Shown: one piece after another, positions 1-5,712 of the stretch | Layout of the letters: the number at the start of each line of letters is the position of its first letter | Position numbering within the stretch: the first letter of the stretch is position 1 | Assembly (NCBI GenBank): GCA_002069025.1 | Contig: MWBK01000183.1 | Span: 1 to 5,712 of the forward strand | Source of the DNA: Bacteroidetes bacterium ADurb.Bin302 | GTDB lineage: Bacteria > Bacteroidota > Bacteroidia > Bacteroidales > Paludibacteraceae | Length of the DNA: 5,712 nt | Direction of reading: 5' to 3' | The notes under the pieces: model-generated | Databases searched by the model: none | What the model saw: the letters and a program-made list of their open reading frames with translations, nothing else | What the model was told of the DNA's origin: nothing | Made by a program: the position numbers and the translations under genes

Positions 1-3000
1 AAAATCGAAAAGGCGATGAGTAAGAAAGTTAAAAAGCTTAAGAAGATTAAAAAAGATAAAGCTATAAATAATGATAAACTACACGTTTATCAGATTGACG
101 AAGCTGATGACATAAAGAATACTATCGAAAATTTTAAGAAAAATGAAGAAGTGGAATATGTGCAAGAAGACTACGTTCTAACAAGTTTTGACCTTCCTAC
201 AGACATAAAATTTAATGAGCAGTGGCACCTTAACAACAATGGGCAGTCTGTATTCGGTCAGACAGGCACAAGCGGTGTGGATGTGAATGTTTTAGATGCA
301 TGGTCAAAGTCCGAAGGTTCAGAGGAAGTGCTGGTTGGTGTAATCGATACGGGCATAGATGCTTTTCATGAAGATCTCAAAGAAAATATTTACATAAACA
401 AAAATGAAGTACCGGGTGACGGATTGGATAACGATGGGAATGGCTACGTTGACGATGTAACCGGATATGATTTCCACAATGATGACGGCACGGTATACGA
501 CGCAAATGAAGCATTACATGGAACACATGTTGCCGGGATTATTGGGGCGAGCAAAAACGGAGTGGGTGTATGCGGAGTTTCCCCAAAGGTAAAAATTCTT
601 CCTGTGAAGTTTATTGAAGGAAATATAGGTTATACCAGCGACGCAATTGAAGCGATAAACTACTGTAAAGCTATGAACGTTGATATTGTGAATGTGTCAT
701 GGGGATCAACGGTATATAACCAGGCACTCAAGGACGCTATGGAAGAGAGTGGCTTAATGTTCGTAGCGGCAGCGGGCAATCTGGGTGTGAGTACATCTTC
801 AGTGCCTGTATATCCCGCTGCATTTGATTTGCCCAATATAATATCTGTAGCTGCCACTGACAATAACGGGTACCTTGCATCGTTTTCGAGCTATGGTAGT
901 GATGTCGATGTAGCTGCACCAGGTTTTAACATTTTGAGTACACTTCCTGATAACCAATACGGTATGTTAAGCGGTACCTCCATGGCTTGTCCAAATGTAA
1001 CAGGAATATTGACCCTTCTAAAAAGCTATGAACCGGATATAACAGTTGAAGAGATGGTTGACAGGCTCAAGCGTAATGTTGTAAAGTCGTACAAGCTTGA
1101 GGGAAAAGTAGCAACAGGCGGTAGAGTTGATGCGAACGCAGTGCTTGAGGATGTAGTTCCGCAGGCCGAAGTTGGCAATTTTATTCCTGTTGCACCATAC
1201 ACAATAAACAACAATGAGAATAAGAATGCTGATGAAGCGATAAATGATTCACTAAATAACAAGGCAGGGGCAAGTGATAAAATAGTTAAGCCTGTTGTAG
1301 TTGAAAGCACAATGGAAGGCGAACAAAAAACGGATAATTTCAACAGAGAAGAATTGGGTATCGATGGAATGAGGGAGGATATTGAGCCTCAGAGCATGAG
1401 TGCTCTATCATATACATATGAGGTTGAGCCTAACAATACAACATCCACAGGTATGACAGTGCCGATAGGAGCAACCTTTGGTACTGCTGAAGCAGTTTCC
1501 GGTAATGACTGGTATATAGTTTATCTTGAGGCAAACAAGCAGTATTCCTTCCGATTGACAGGAATACAACAGGGTGATGACCTTGGACTGTTCCTTTTTA
1601 AACCTGATCTATCCGATGCAGATTATTCGGACAGATTCTATAATGCCGATGAAAATATAACTTACACAACACCTGTGGCAGGATATTATTATATAGATGT
1701 ATTTTGCTTAATCCGGGGAGCCGCATCAAGTCATAATTACCAGATGCTTATATACCCAAGTGATGCCGCAGCTGATTCCTTTGAGCCAAATGACAGTACA
1801 GGCACTGCCACGGTCATATCGGGCAATACCCCGGTCAGCGGAAATATAAATATAACAGCTGATGATGATTGGTATGTAATTGATACTAATGAAACTGGAA
1901 AACTTACGGTGTCTCTTGAAGGAATCCCTTCGGGCTGTGATTATGAAATTTCGGTGTATGACGAAACCCTTTCTTATGTTGGTGGTTCATATAATACAGG
2001 CAATACCAAGGAAAAGGCAAATATTTTGATGGACAGAACCGGAAAGTATTATATAAGGGTTTACTCCTATTCCGGTGCAAATTCATCGTCAAATTATAGT
2101 TTAAATGCTGTTGTGTCAACTCCCGACAGCTATGAATCAAATGATTATACCTATGAAGCTAAAAGTGTGGAAATTGGTACTTCTGCTTTAGCGACAATAG
2201 ATAATATAAGGGATCAGGACTTGTATAAGGTGGTTATTGATGAAAATGCCAGCTATACTTTTGAGCTTGAGAACATCCCTTTGGGCAGAGATTATGATAT
2301 GTATATATATAATGAGAGCGGCAACTACGTTGCAGGGTCAGCATGGGGTTCGAATTATGATGAACTCATTAATACAACGCTGGCAGCCGGAATTTACTAT
2401 GTGAAGATTTATCCCTATAACGGATATTCAGACGAACAAAGTTATAAATTTTCAGCCTATGAGGACAGTGCCGTTAATATATCAATCCCCTACATGAGGG
2501 CAAACGCAGGGGATGAGATTGTTGTACCTGTGTTTATTGAGAATGTGCCACAAGAGGGAGTATGCAGTTTTGACTTCAAGGTTGACTATGATTCAAGTGC
2601 ATTGAGTTATACCGGTTATGAAGCGGGAGCTTTGACCAATGCAAGTGATGTTATTATTGAGGCTAATGACACAGGGGATAGCATAAATGTTTTGTATCTT
2701 GATAATTCAACAACCTTTTCTATGCCTATTACTAGTGCAGGTGAGGTTATAAAGCTTAAGTTCACGGTTGATGCTGCTGTAAGCGATGGAGCTTACGAAT
2801 TGTCATACAAGGATGGTTGGAGCTTTGGAAAGCCTGTTGTTGGCGGCGTTGATGATATAGCAAATGTTGTATTCAAACCTTCTGTTGTAATGGTTGGCAG
2901 CTATGGCATCAGTAGCTTGCAGGCTACAGAACAGCCCATTAGGTTATTAGCGGATGAGGTGCCAGTGTCATCAACTGGTGATGTAAATGGTGATGGGAAT

Positions 3001-5712
3001 CGTAATAGTATTGATTTTGCTATAATGAGGGCAGCTTTGTTAGGTATTAATCAGATTTCTGAGGATTATATAGGTAATGCAGACGTGACTGGAGAGGGAG
3101 CGTTTAACGCTATAGATTTTGGATATATGAGACAATACCTGTTGGGGATGATAAAGGTGTTTCCCAAGGATGCAATGACCCCAACACCTACACCTACAGA
3201 GATTTTTACGCCAACGCCAACAGCTGACACAGAGAGTCCTACTACTCCGCTAAACTTAAATTGTGCTGACAGAACAGATACAACGATAACTCTCTCATGG
3301 TCAGCTTCTACCGATAATGTAGGTGTAAAAGGGTATAAAATTTATCGTGATGGTATAGAAGTTGGATATACAACTGAATTAAGTTATTGTGACATTGAAT
3401 TGATAGAGGGTACGACTTATCAGTATTATGTAAAAGCTTATGATGAACTGAATAATATATCTGATGCAAGTTCGACAATCAATATAATGACTTTATCGAA
3501 AGATATTTCGGCCGTTTCATTAGATACAAGAGATGGAGGAGATGGAAGAGATGAGACTTCAATAACCATTAGATGGAATCCGGTTGAAGGCGCGGTTAAG
3601 TATGAGATTTGCGCAGATGGTGCATATCAATACTTTAGAACCTCTGATACATTTAAGCACGAAAATCTTATTAAAAATACACGACATTCATACAAGGTTC
3701 GTGTGATATATTCCAACAATGTAACAAGCGCATGGAGTGAGACACTCAGGGTAAATACAGCACCGGATAAAATAATGGAAGTTGATGCAGAAATACCTGA
3801 TGACAAAACAACAGCAATAATAAAATGGAAGGCTGTTGAAGGCGCAAGTACATATAGGATATATAGGATATATAGGGACGGTGAAGTAGTCGAGGAAACA
3901 AATTTATCCTATCTTGATGATTATTCAACTATGATTATGAATTTGAAAACAAACGCTGATTACACGTATGAGGTCAGAGCGATTAATTCAAGCAATGTTG
4001 AGATGGGCGATAGTGGTAGAGTCTTGGTGAATACAGGTGCAGGGGTTATTAAAGACAATTCTGCTATGTACGAGAATCGAGTGTACGGAAGTCTAGACGT
4101 TAAATTAAGTTCAACAAATATTCTTGATGTAAATGGATACAAAATAAATGTTAATGAAAATGTAACTATGGGATCATCAAATTATGTTGGAAGTATTAGG
4201 TTAAGTGAAGGAAAAATAGAAGTTGAAGGGGATTTATACCAAAGTCAGGGAAGTTTGTATGTCGATAATGGAGAAGTACTGATACATGGTGATTATAGCC
4301 AAACTGATGGTGGAAGATTATTCATGGTATGTGATAAAGACTATGTTTGTGTTGAGGGTAATTATTCCATTTCAACATATGAAAATAACAACAATTTGAC
4401 AGCAGGCACATTGGAAATTAAAGGTGACTTAACTCAAAGTAGATATAAAAATTATATAGCAACGGGTACTCATAAAACAATCTTAAGTGGAATAGAGGAG
4501 CAAGTTGTTAGTTTTCAAAGTCCGGATTCTTCATACCTCAATATATTGGAAATAAGAGAAAATAATAGTGTTGTTAAATTTGAATCAGCTATAAAAGTAA
4601 ATACCTTATTATGTAAAAGAGTTATAGATTCAGATTTGGAAATTTACGATATTGTTAACCCACTTGAAGGTGATTTAACAGTATTGGGAGATCTCAAGTT
4701 GGGTGCAAATCTCAAGTGTTTTGATATAAATGGTCATAGCGTAACAGTTAAAGGCAATATGGAATTTAATGGCTGGGGCGTACTTGATATAGATAAAGGT
4801 AATTTGTTAGTTGAGGGAAATTTAACCCAAGGTTATGGGTATTTAAAGGTTAACAAGGGTCAGATGCTGATAAATGGTGACTATACATCACCAAATTCTG
4901 GTGGAATACTATATATGGAGAATGAAGAAGATTATGTTTTAGTGGGAGGAAATTATAATGTTCAATGCCATGTTAATGAAACAAAGACATATGTTAATAA
5001 TGTAGAGATTGTTGAGAGTAAAAATAGTTTGACAGCAGGTGTATTAGAGGTTAAAGGAAATTTTATACAACGTGATTACCTCTATGGCTATGATTCGCAA
5101 AGTGATTCTCCGTATCATAAAAGTAATAACTTTGTATCAACTGGTACACATAAGACAGTATTAAGTGGAGATAAAAAACAAATAATTGATTTCGAGGGTT
5201 CGGGCACGAGCAAGTTTAATATACTTATTGTTAATAAGCCTTTAGAATATGGCTATAAATTATTGAGTAATGATAAACCAACAACGGCAGAACCATGGAA
5301 CTACATCGAACAAATCACAAACACAAACCCCCTCCCAGGAACCACAATAACAAGACCAAGTCTTGAACCAGCAAGGCAGGGACTCGGATTGGCAGAAGTA
5401 AACGGAAGAATATATGCGTTTGGTGGAAAAACCAATGATGGCACATACCTCAATACAGTTACTGAATATGATTACATAGCAAACAAGTGGATAGAATATG
5501 CATCATCAACCCCCAACACAATCATGAAAACCGGCAAAAGCGACTTCGCAATTGCTGCGACAGATAATGAGGTATATATATTTGGTGGGTCTGACGGAGA
5601 AAACCACCTTAGCACTGTTGAACAGTACAATCAAGCAACTGGCCAATTTGTCAATAGAGACTTAATTCCTGACATGCCAACAGCGAGAAGTGGAGCAAAA
5701 GCAACTCTGATA
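1..5712 (+). CDS. Giant modular S8 (subtilisin-like) serine protease with cohesin, dockerin, FN3 and Kelch modules; partial at both ends
   Basis: Frame 1 is open for all 1904 codons with no internal stop, and recognisable domains follow one another in that frame, so this is one polypeptide rather than several genes. It should be a secreted endopeptidase that hydrolyses peptide bonds through an Asp-His-Ser triad (D116, H173, S327). Domain order: propeptide, S8 catalytic domain, three PPC domains, cohesin-like domain, dockerin, Pro/Thr linker, three FN3 domains, duplicated beta-repeat module, Kelch repeats. The ATG at base 16 is not the likely start: what follows is lysine-rich without a hydrophobic core, there is no well-spaced Shine-Dalgarno, and the propeptide would lack most of its N-terminal half. 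The signal peptide and true start must lie upstream. The C-terminus is also missing, and the Kelch repeats continue past the edge. The cohesin/dockerin pair suggests a cellulosome-forming member of the Clostridia. The protease assignment is firm; the physiological substrate cannot be told from sequence. Confidence 0.96.
79..186 (+). other. C-terminal part of the protease propeptide (I9 / fervidolysin-N-like)
   Basis: Residues 27-62 (starting LHVYQI and containing VEYVQEDYV) have the beta-alpha-beta pattern and the 'VEYVxxDY' ending typical of subtilisin propeptides. These act as intramolecular chaperones and inhibitors and are removed by autocleavage. The segment lies directly before the FNEQWHLNN stretch (residues 71-79), which commonly opens the mature S8 domain, so cleavage is expected between about residues 60 and 70. 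The preceding 20 residues are very lysine-rich. The N-terminal half of the propeptide and the signal peptide lie outside the window. The family is inferred from pattern; the exact cleavage site is not determined. Confidence 0.75.
211..1158 (+). other. Peptidase S8 (subtilase) catalytic domain
   Basis: Residues 71-386 carry all the subtilase hallmarks in order. The Asp motif VIDTGID has catalytic D116. The His motif HGTHVAG has catalytic H173. The substrate-cleft strand NVSWGS spans 231-236. The oxyanion-hole Asn N260 lies in AAAGN, and the Ser motif GTSMAC has catalytic S327. An insertion DNDGNGYVDD (143-152) between Asp and His is an acidic loop of the DxDxNG type, found in many bacterial subtilases and probably binding calcium. 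The domain ends at the GGRVDANAVL helix (373-382). Length of about 315 residues is normal for the family. After the Ser motif the usual PHVAG reads PNVTG, so the conserved His is Asn; this position is outside the triad. The enzyme is predicted active. Cysteines at 192, 222 and 330 are scattered, and no disulfide can be assigned. Confidence 0.97.
1159..1413 (+). other. Acidic, Asn/Glu/Lys-rich linker
   Basis: Residues 387-471 join the catalytic domain to the first PPC domain. The stretch is rich in N, E, D and K, has no clear hydrophobic periodicity, and matches no domain I recognise. It includes runs such as TINNNENKNADEA (401-413). It is probably a flexible, solvent-exposed tether, and a possible processing site separating the protease from the C-terminal modules, as happens in some PPC-bearing proteases. 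The linker role is inferred from composition only. Confidence 0.6.
1414..1758 (+). other. PPC domain 1 (bacterial pre-peptidase C-terminal domain)
   Basis: Residues 472-586 open with the typical EPNNT (476-480). They continue with the GNDWYIV strand (501-507), a FRLTGI strand, and close with GYYYIDVF (561-568) and YQMLIYPS. This order is the PPC signature, a beta-sandwich of about 110 residues found C-terminal to secreted peptidases. PPC domains are thought to help secretion or stability, or to bind substrate or matrix, and are often removed during maturation. It is the first of three consecutive copies that have diverged strongly in sequence. Confidence 0.85.
1774..2115 (+). other. PPC domain 2
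   Basis: Residues 592-705 repeat the PPC pattern: DSFEPND (592-598), the acidic DDDWYVI (621-627), LTVSLEGIPSGCDYEISVYD, then GKYYIRVYSY (681-690) and NYSLNAV. It is the best match to the family consensus among the three copies. The acidic cluster before the Trp is a plausible calcium site, as in characterised PPC and collagen-binding domains; the binding itself is inference. Confidence 0.88.
2125..2460 (+). other. PPC domain 3 (divergent)
   Basis: Residues 709-820 begin DSYESND (709-715) and show the internal strands YTFELENIPLGRDYDMYIYN and the closing GIYYVKIYPY (797-806), aligning with copies 1 and 2. The DWY strand of the other copies reads DLY here (740-742), and EPN has become ESN, so this is the most drifted copy. 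It abuts the cohesin-like domain with almost no linker. Confidence 0.8.
2473..2898 (+). other. Cohesin-like domain
   Basis: Residues 825-966 follow the cohesin layout. The first strand is VNISIPYMRANAGDEIVVPV (825-844), matching the 'xAxPGDxVxIPV' opening. It is followed by GVCSFDFKVDYDSSAL (553rd-codon numbering does not apply; window residues about 853-868), equivalent to the 'GIxxxDFxxxYDPxxL' strand of type I cohesins. Then come a 'VLYLDNS' strand, an 'IKLKFTV' strand, and a last strand ending VVMVG (962-966). Length of about 140 residues is normal. Cohesins bind dockerins with high, calcium-dependent affinity and normally sit on scaffoldins. Here the domain is part of a protease and is followed after about 25 residues by a dockerin. 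Cohesin-fold domains outside scaffoldins can have lost dockerin binding, so partner binding is unproven. Confidence 0.8.
2974..3162 (+). other. Type I dockerin domain, second calcium loop degenerate
   Basis: Residues 992-1054 form two F-hand repeats. The first loop DVNGDGNRNSID (994-1005) has all expected calcium ligands (D994, N996, D998, N1000, D1005), followed by the helix FAIMRAALLG. The second loop DVTGEGAFNAID (1028-1039) keeps D1028, G1033 and D1039 but has Thr and Glu at ligand positions 3 and 5, where Asn and Asp are usual. Its helix is FGYMRQYLLG. The putative specificity pairs (loop positions 10-11) are Ser-Ile and Ala-Ile. Dockerins plug enzymes into cohesins on scaffoldins or the cell surface, so this is the strongest clue to a cellulosome-forming host. 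Unusually, it sits in the middle of the chain rather than at the C-terminus. Confidence 0.93.
3175..3246 (+). other. Pro/Thr-rich linker
   Basis: Residues 1059-1082 contain two TPTPT tracts (1060-1066 and 1070-1074) separated by EIF, then a Ser/Pro/Thr tail. The DNA is correspondingly a simple alternation of cca/cct/acg/aca codons. Pro-Thr linkers are the standard extended, often O-glycosylated connectors between modules of clostridial cellulosomal proteins. This one marks the boundary between the protease-cohesin-dockerin half and the FN3-Kelch half. Confidence 0.9.
3247..3492 (+). other. Fibronectin type III domain 1
   Basis: Residues 1083-1164 follow the FN3 pattern. Strand B is TTITLSWSASTDNVGVKGY, with the conserved Trp W1100. 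Strand C is YKIYRDGIEV, then the tyrosine-corner strand TYQYYVKAYDE (1139-1149), ending in SDASSTINIMT. This 'SWSASTDNVGVKGYKIYRDG' form is the one common in bacterial extracellular carbohydrate enzymes. It is probably a spacer or weak binding module. Confidence 0.9.
3505..3759 (+). other. Fibronectin type III domain 2
   Basis: Residues 1169-1253 show the FN3 strands SITIRWNPVEGAVKYEI (Trp W1192), then SYKVRVIYSNN (about 1230-1240) and WSETLRVNT at the end. The A-B loop is enlarged by a charged insert RDGGDGRDE (1177-1185), encoded by an imperfect nine-base tandem repeat. The domain runs directly into the third FN3 domain. Confidence 0.85.
3529..3555 (+). repeat. Imperfect 9-bp tandem repeat, three units, in frame
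   Basis: Three nine-base units, agagatgga / ggagatgga / agagatgag, encode RDG-GDG-RDE in the A-B loop of the second FN3 domain. The first and second units differ at one base and the first and third at one base. The unit length preserves the reading frame, and the extra charged residues fall in a loop, where they would be tolerated. Origin by slipped-strand replication is inferred. Confidence 0.75.
3760..4035 (+). other. Fibronectin type III domain 3
   Basis: Residues 1254-1345 give the FN3 pattern: TTAIIKWKAVEGASTYRIYR (Trp W1276), DGEVVEE, then DYTYEVRAINSSN (1320-1332) and RVLVNT. In strand C the usual YRIYRDG is extended to YRIYRIYRDG (1285-1294) by a three-residue duplication. The domain is followed by about 13 residues and then the beta-repeat region. 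Confidence 0.87.
3852..3876 (+). repeat. Perfect 9-bp tandem repeat (about 2.8 copies), in frame
   Basis: The unit atataggat occurs at 3852-3860 and 3861-3869, followed by a partial third copy atatagg at 3870-3876. It encodes an iterated Tyr-Arg-Ile in strand C of the third FN3 domain, where FN3 relatives, including the first FN3 here (YKIYRDG), have a single copy. The perfect identity points to a recent slippage event. It adds exactly three residues and does not disturb the frame. Confidence 0.88.
4075..4566 (+). repeat. Beta-repeat module, copy A (TGTHKT module)
   Basis: Residues 1359-1522 consist of short beta strands alternating with Gly/Asn turns: INVNENVTM, IEVEGDLYQ, VLIHGDYSQ, VCVEGNYSI, LEIKGDLTQ. 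This 'xVxGDhxQ' rhythm of roughly 20 residues resembles stacked turns of a beta-solenoid. The copy ends in TGTHKTILSG (1488-1497), then QVVSFQSPDSSYLNILEI. The same order recurs in copy B, so this is a duplicated module. I do not recognise an experimentally characterised family. Similar stretches with GTHK...F..NILE wording occur in large clostridial surface proteins, to my recollection. A role as an adhesive or structural stalk is inferred. Confidence 0.7.
4648..5238 (+). repeat. Beta-repeat module, copy B (TGTHKT module, longer)
   Basis: Residues 1550-1746 align with copy A. LLVEGNLTQ matches IEVEGDLYQ, MLINGDYTS matches VLIHGDYSQ, DYVLVGGNYNV matches DYVCVEGNYSI, SLTAGVLEVKGNF matches NLTAGTLEIKGDL, and TGTHKTVLSG (1714-1723) matches TGTHKTILSG. 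DNA similarity is also visible around ttgacagcagg and taagtgga. Copy B is longer because of two inserts, one after the GGNY strand (about 1655-1674) and one between GNF and the TGTHKT motif (about 1690-1709). It begins with an extra turn, LTVLGDLKLGANLK, of a form common in beta-helical surface proteins. Confidence 0.7.
5353..5712 (+). other. Kelch-repeat beta-propeller, N-terminal blades (truncated by window end)
   Basis: Residues 1785-1904 hold two Kelch blades and the start of a third. Blade 1 has RIYAFGGKTNDGTYLNTV and EYDYIANKW, with the diagnostic double Gly at 1808-1809, a Tyr in EYD and Trp W1830. Blade 2 has VYIFGGSDGENHLSTV and EQYNQATGQF, with double Gly at 1862-1863. Blade 3 starts at MPTARSGAKATLI (1892-1904). 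Kelch propellers need five to seven blades, so most of the domain must lie downstream. Such propellers bind proteins or glycans; the ligand here is unknown. The codon use of this part (C-ending codons such as aac, atc, ctc) differs from the region just before it. Confidence 0.9.

Follow-up and report, generated by a model that had tools for sequence, protein, structure and literature searches.

The window analysed here, a stretch of 5712 bases, is occupied by a single reading frame that stays open across all of it, and a Pfam scan of the translation returned the domain order S8-PPC3-Coh1-Doc1-fn3-kelch (Table 1). The catalytic residues of the S8 protease are all present, namely D116 (346-348), H173 (517-519), N260 (778-780), and S327 (979-981), as assigned from what we take to be the characteristic S8 motifs. 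The first-pass annotation of this DNA had described an intact S8 triad followed in the same chain by a cohesin and then a dockerin; the Pfam matches confirm this, and its coordinates and domain calls are correct. The frame enters the window within the protease prodomain, as judged from the alignment of window residue 23 to residue 113 of a related protein, P0002, whose Fervidolysin_NPro-like stretch covers residues 77-145; the start and signal peptide presumably lie upstream. Downstream of the dockerin, two fn3 stretches pass the Pfam cut-off and the sequence suggests a third. The beta-rich repeats that follow (about 400 residues) matched no Pfam family above its cut-off, and the window diverges more from P0002 here than in the preceding part. 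The sequence stops in kelch repeats, and the window holds no RHS repeat, Rhs core, tail, or downstream gene. The Pfam models matched by the kelch part, here and in the relatives, are titled 'Galactose oxidase, central domain'; a reading as galactose oxidase was rejected, as every model that matched this part of the scanned proteins was of kelch type. 'GalOx' modules reported in Clostridium alkalicellulosi scaffoldins puzzled their authors, since the enzyme needs oxygen (PMC6780208); these may be kelch propellers of the same sort. We read the window as encoding the front portion of a very large secreted protein of the ScaO type, from a cellulose degrader related to Acetivibrio cellulolyticus.

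Table 1. Features of the reading frame in the 5712-base window (nucleotide positions of the window).
Feature	Position	Strand	Basis and remarks
Protease prodomain remainder	1..300	+	limits approximate
S8 subtilisin-like protease	322..1080	+	PF00082 E=1.3e-53; Peptidase_S8 residues 108-360
Three PPC stretches	1400..2463	+	PF04151; limits approximate; best stretch 1504-1701
Type I cohesin	2464..2898	+	PF00963 E=1.6e-18; Pfam stretch 2476-2850 (residues 826-950); Asp858 at 2572-2574
Cohesin-dockerin linker, 25 residues	2899..2973	+	modelled with lower confidence; conserved in part in P0002
Type I dockerin	2974..3162	+	PF00404 E=2.2e-12; Dockerin_1 residues 993-1048
Pro/Thr-rich linker	3163..3243	+	sequence
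fn3 domains	3244..4032	+	PF00041 E=1.3e-9, best stretch residues 1082-1149; limits approximate
Beta-rich repetitive region	4033..5220	+	repeats in translation; limits approximate
First kelch propeller blades, cut by window end	5365..5712	+	PF13964 1794-1834, PF01344 1847-1883, 8e-17

Profile searches gave good matches for both the cohesin and the dockerin and assigned them to type I; in a comparison run here, the cohesin was nearer to type I than to type II cohesins. Its Asp858, which we take to be the equivalent of the CipA cohesin Asp39 that contacts the dockerin Ser-Thr pair, is a credible binding feature; the position is Asp in only 4 of the 11 aligned cohesins. Two calcium loops with recognition residues are present in the dockerin: loop 1 (residues 994-1015) has S-I at positions 10/11 and R-A at 17/18, and loop 2 (residues 1028-1049) has A-I and R-Q and deviates at positions 3, 5, and 10. 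In an A. cellulolyticus-like genome, the recognition pairs of 36 loops, from the 18 dockerins parsed among the best 30 of 145 dockerin matches, were SI (26), SL (7), AI (2), and AL (1). By its residues, then, we infer that the window dockerin carries the recognition pairs of the enzyme dockerins of the host clade. Its matches also include the PDB entries 8x39/8x3a ('Serine protease'), probably a module of C. thermocellum dDoc_0689. That protein is likewise an S8 protease with a dockerin, but it is described with two dockerins, no cohesin being mentioned in that description, and its anchoring to the cell surface via ScaD has been proposed.

The joint presence of a cohesin and a dockerin on a peptidase defines an already named scaffoldin class, ScaO/ScaP, rather than a new kind of protein; the combination had been flagged as uncommon, which does not hold if the word is taken to mean undescribed. 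Published accounts give A. cellulolyticus 16 scaffoldins and 41 cohesins, with some scaffoldins combining cohesin and dockerin and with ScaO and ScaP as putative peptidases (PMC3413522, PMC4217186), and describe ScaO and ScaP of P. cellulosolvens as combining a peptidase and multiple PPC with one cohesin and one dockerin (further sources for published cellulosome facts: PMC5590126, PMC12484212, PMC4728124). In Clostridium (Acetivibrio) alkalicellulosi, ScaP1/ScaP2 stand beside ScaO1 and ScaO2, whose reported architectures, 'Peptidase PPC Coh1 Doc1 Coh2 RhsA' and 'Peptidase Coh2 Doc1 GalOx RhsA', are similar to those considered here (PMC6780208). The window likewise has the S8 peptidase, PPC, cohesin, and dockerin of the ScaO type in one chain. 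Its closest relative is L056 (4812 aa; 66% identity to window residues 23-1479), of which P0002 is the first 3073 residues and which carries S8, PPC, cohesin, dockerin, fn3, kelch, DUF6531, and RHS_repeat in one chain. In the genome encoding L056 there are 42 cohesin matches, and the Cel5 dockerin known from a crystal structure is matched at 97%; because 42 comes close to the published 41, we infer that L056 is ScaO of A. cellulolyticus, and through it the window protein would be homologous to a named ScaO. For the peptidase scaffoldins of A. cellulolyticus, published text and legend likewise give S8 peptidase, PPC, FN3, Rhs, type I CohO, and DocO, but ScaO is presented as an unusual scaffoldin, and the passages on it do not discuss its tail as a toxin (PMC3413522, PMC4217186). 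P0007, a protein named as A. alkalicellulosi and ScaO1-like by its modules, is 45% identical to P0002 over PPC-Coh-Doc and has a second cohesin stretch, whereas the window has only one. The sequence record for A. alkalicellulosi carries the label UNVERIFIED, and its gene L050 is split in two frames, the second comprising an Rhs core and tail.

Binding data for such modules come from two species. In a screen of 21 cohesin and 15 dockerin constructs, covering about 7% of all possible pairs, isolated CohO and DocO of A. cellulolyticus are reported to have bound no tested partner selectively (PMC3413522, PMC4217186). The P. cellulosolvens ScaO cohesin is reported to bind enzyme dockerins with the same specificity as ScaA1, in a type II pairing; the ScaO dockerin was left out of those published binding tests.

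The first-pass annotation had also suggested that the protein might cap itself by intramolecular pairing. In the form considered here, the cohesin would bind its own dockerin in cis until freed by a stronger competitor. The two modules are of type I on both sides, and an AF2 model of residues 822-1060, built on 11 alignment rows, reached a pLDDT of 89.2 and a pTM of 0.88, against about 0.6 expected for two unconnected domains (the larger domain's share, by our own estimate). As pTM is high despite a floppy linker of lower confidence, the model suggests that the cohesin and dockerin are packed together in cis, a packing read from pLDDT and pTM alone rather than from coordinates or inter-domain errors. 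An earlier cohesin-linker-dockerin model on five rows was poor to the point of being unusable (pLDDT 57.1, pTM 0.57), the five models of the 11-row job included a weaker one (mean pLDDT 64.5), and AF2 might join cohesins and dockerins indiscriminately. The isolated CohO and DocO, moreover, showed no selective binding in the published matrix (PMC3413522, PMC4217186); a weak cis pair could, however, escape a screen of separate modules. One model supports the structural part of the suggestion and the published matrix does not, and we regard self-capping as a tentative, rather improbable proposal, compatible with either a toxin or a scaffoldin function. The linker shares SLQ...QPIRLLAD between the window and P0002, a partial conservation that may exceed what a mere spacer requires. 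When the model was compared using VIA, at least one fifth of the rows were confined to model residues 1-147, so that the dockerin part was barely covered.

We surveyed the distribution of the Coh-Doc pair in the order of genome G429, where cohesins occur in 42 of the 58 genomes and Coh-Doc profile matches at E<=1e-25 in seven. Removing a many-cohesin frame of G504 leaves six genomes with seven Coh-Doc places, at six of which S8 precedes the pair; the seventh, L051, is a 3.9-kb contig that cuts the gene. PPC was matched in L048, L050, L051, and L056 and unmatched in L047, L049, and L057. L057 ends with its contig before any tail, and L049, which has masked bases, was omitted from the tail comparison and used for ORF spacing and for S8 and Coh-Doc matches. 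A further P. cellulosolvens homolog, L094, was found via its protease; it took the place of L058, which was dropped as a many-cohesin frame ending in SLH domains. A plasmid search gave no match to the window protein, and a wider scan of genome contigs found two distant loci only. In 100 genomes from the family to which one of the two loci belongs, the matches were weak (best E 1.3e-9; identities 24-44%) and lay mostly in the dockerin part.

In the relatives that extend beyond the end of the window, the kelch part leads to DUF6531 and RHS repeats (P0002, P0005, P0008, and L056), both of which P0007 reaches without a kelch match. The Rhs_assc_core was found in P0029, P0030, P0032, and L047, and BLAST placed the Rhs-associated core in L056 and the L050 piece too; in P0029, P0030, P0032, L047, and L056 the core is followed by a variable tail. 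P0029 and P0030 share 64-95 identities per 90-100 aligned columns (62/69 in the first block) up to about residue 4482, beyond which these fall to 28/81, 16/59, and 1/4, their tails being unrelated. The same holds across seven members: in six of them the 300 aa ahead of the core are 35-87% alike (in the exception, L048, the core was not found), and the sole match between their last 200 aa is 36 aa in the pair P0029/P0030. A complete-looking C-terminus is available for ten relatives (L047, L048, the L050 piece, L056, L094, P0029, P0030, P0032, P0053, and P0067), and five of these have a recognisable tail domain: CDI_toxin_EC869_like in P0067 (4.4e-9), NTP_transf_2 in P0029 (4e-7), DUF3289 behind the core in L047 (2.7e-24), PT-HINT in L048 (1.7e-29), and a HINT-like stretch in L094 of P. 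cellulosolvens, known from comparison (37% identity to that of L048) rather than from a Pfam scan. The names of DUF3289, the nucleotidyltransferase, and HINT do not mark them as toxins. No tail domain was recognised in L056, the closest relative, or in L050, P0030, P0032, and P0053; the tail of L056 has a GHH-like stretch, presumably reminiscent of nuclease toxins. The dockerin match of P0053 falls below the Pfam cut-off, and P0067 is a shorter variant with S8, cohesin, a phosphate-binding-protein-like domain, dockerin, and the CDI-type tail, in which RHS is unmatched.

The genes are commonly trailed by a small ORF. Counting same-strand ORFs of >=70 aa, the next one is close at five of six gene ends, at -4 (L047), +6 (L056), +7 (L048), +73 (L049), and +186 nt (L050); at the sixth, L094, an opposite-strand ORF intervenes and the next same-strand ORF lies 798 nt on. 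The next ORFs of L047, L048, L056, and L050, along with two further downstream ORFs, gave no match to immunity families; of those two, the one behind L050 matches Phage_lysozyme and the one behind L048 nothing significant. Two other ORFs at L048 look, from their sequences, like a displaced toxin cassette: in one, 158 aa repeat the pre-HINT/HINT stretch of the gene itself at 90%, while in the other the first 83 aa are 45% like the tail and there is a Toxin-deaminase match (3.3e-17).

Related proteins also occur without the cellulosomal modules. P. cellulosolvens has a 4005-aa S8-kelch-Rhs paralog, L096, free of cohesin and dockerin, which matches L056 in S8, DUF6531, kelch, RHS, and core and not over the L056 stretch from 490 to 1837 (PPC, Coh, Doc, fn3); an ORF overlaps its end by 4 nt. 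P0016 and P0054 are S8-PPC proteins, again without cohesin or dockerin, that end in AHH nuclease and RNAse_A_bac, and precomputed domains show S8 with RHS_repeat and no cohesin in 25 of the 120 matches listed of 149. Because such kin exist, the two coupling modules, cohesin and dockerin, seem to have been added to a toxin body headed by S8. In P. cellulosolvens, the gene for P0056 (S8-PPC-Coh), L095, has an early stop and an opposite-strand ORF ahead of kelch and YD-repeat frames, and looks interrupted. A 2012 survey of polymorphic toxins names subtilisin as a processing protease and RHS and beta-propellers as repeats of Sec-exported toxins (PMC3482391). Sec export, subtilisin, beta-propeller, RHS, and a variable C-terminal domain are thus common to those toxins and the present family; the difference is that the survey makes no mention of cohesin or dockerin, nor of cellulosome or kelch within the 300,000 characters covered (PMC3482391).

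Taken together, we favor, at a probability of roughly 70%, the reading that the ScaO 'peptidase scaffoldins' are S8-headed Rhs polymorphic toxins that gained cellulosome couplings: a dockerin for display, a cohesin as socket or self-cap, and exchangeable antibacterial tails with matching immunity genes. The Rhs core and variable tails of the relatives point to a protease that serves a toxin rather than cellulosome housekeeping. Under this toxin reading, the protein would be exported by the Sec route, and its dockerin would plug it into a scaffoldin, so as to display it with the cellulosome. The cohesin would take up one dockerin-bearing partner, or else stay capped by the dockerin of its own chain until that is displaced. 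The C-terminal toxin would be enclosed in the Rhs shell, and the S8 domain (in some members a pretoxin-HINT) would help to process or release it. The immunity protein would be the product of the small ORF that closely follows the gene, and the toxin would act on rival microbes at the plant fibre. Among these steps, the partners of the dockerin and cohesin and the substrate cut by S8 are the least certain. Everything past the kelch repeats comes from relatives and not from the window, which counts against the toxin reading, and for the window's own gene we rate it no higher than for the family. Further points against it are that only half of the complete-looking ends show a recognisable tail domain, the spacing at L094, and the want of an immunity-family match, while the A. 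cellulolyticus DocO without a selective partner speaks against the plug-in step.

An adaptor scaffoldin with a built-in protease, in which the Rhs part is a mere structural shell, appears unlikely to us, and somewhat less probable than self-capping. Its dockerin would join the cellulosome, its cohesin would hold one enzyme, and the protease would clear biomass proteins or mature cellulosomal parts. This is the published reading, in which such peptidases remove proteins from biomass or serve nitrogen use, and the P. cellulosolvens ScaO cohesin does take enzyme dockerins, like ScaA1. The branching node proposed in the first-pass annotation fits the published ScaO class and this binding in the same way, but the pairs there are of type II. 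In A. cellulolyticus, neither CohO nor DocO had a selective partner in the reported screen (PMC3413522, PMC4217186), and an adaptor function does not account for the exchange of tails behind the Rhs core, for the small ORFs nearby, or for the orphan cassettes and toxin domains of the relatives. Head-to-tail chaining of proteases by Coh-Doc pairs, also raised earlier, found no support and is very improbable: each chain does have a single cohesin and a single dockerin, both of type I, but the screen that included both CohO and DocO reported no selective partner (PMC3413522, PMC4217186), and cis packing would compete.

What is new thus appears to lie beyond the window, in the Rhs core and swappable toxin-like tails of the ScaO relatives. 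A literature search found by title no paper on cellulosomal proteins as polymorphic or interbacterial toxins, the widest query being judged among the matches listed. In published accounts, the role of cellulosomal peptidases is given as experimentally undefined or in need of validation, and the ScaP peptidase is left for further study. If the toxin reading is true, a puzzling scaffoldin class would gain a testable function, and the lack of selective partners for CohO and DocO in the screen could be seen in a different light. The cellulosome would then be a platform for competition besides digestion, and a cellulose degrader would defend its fibre with weapons mounted on it.
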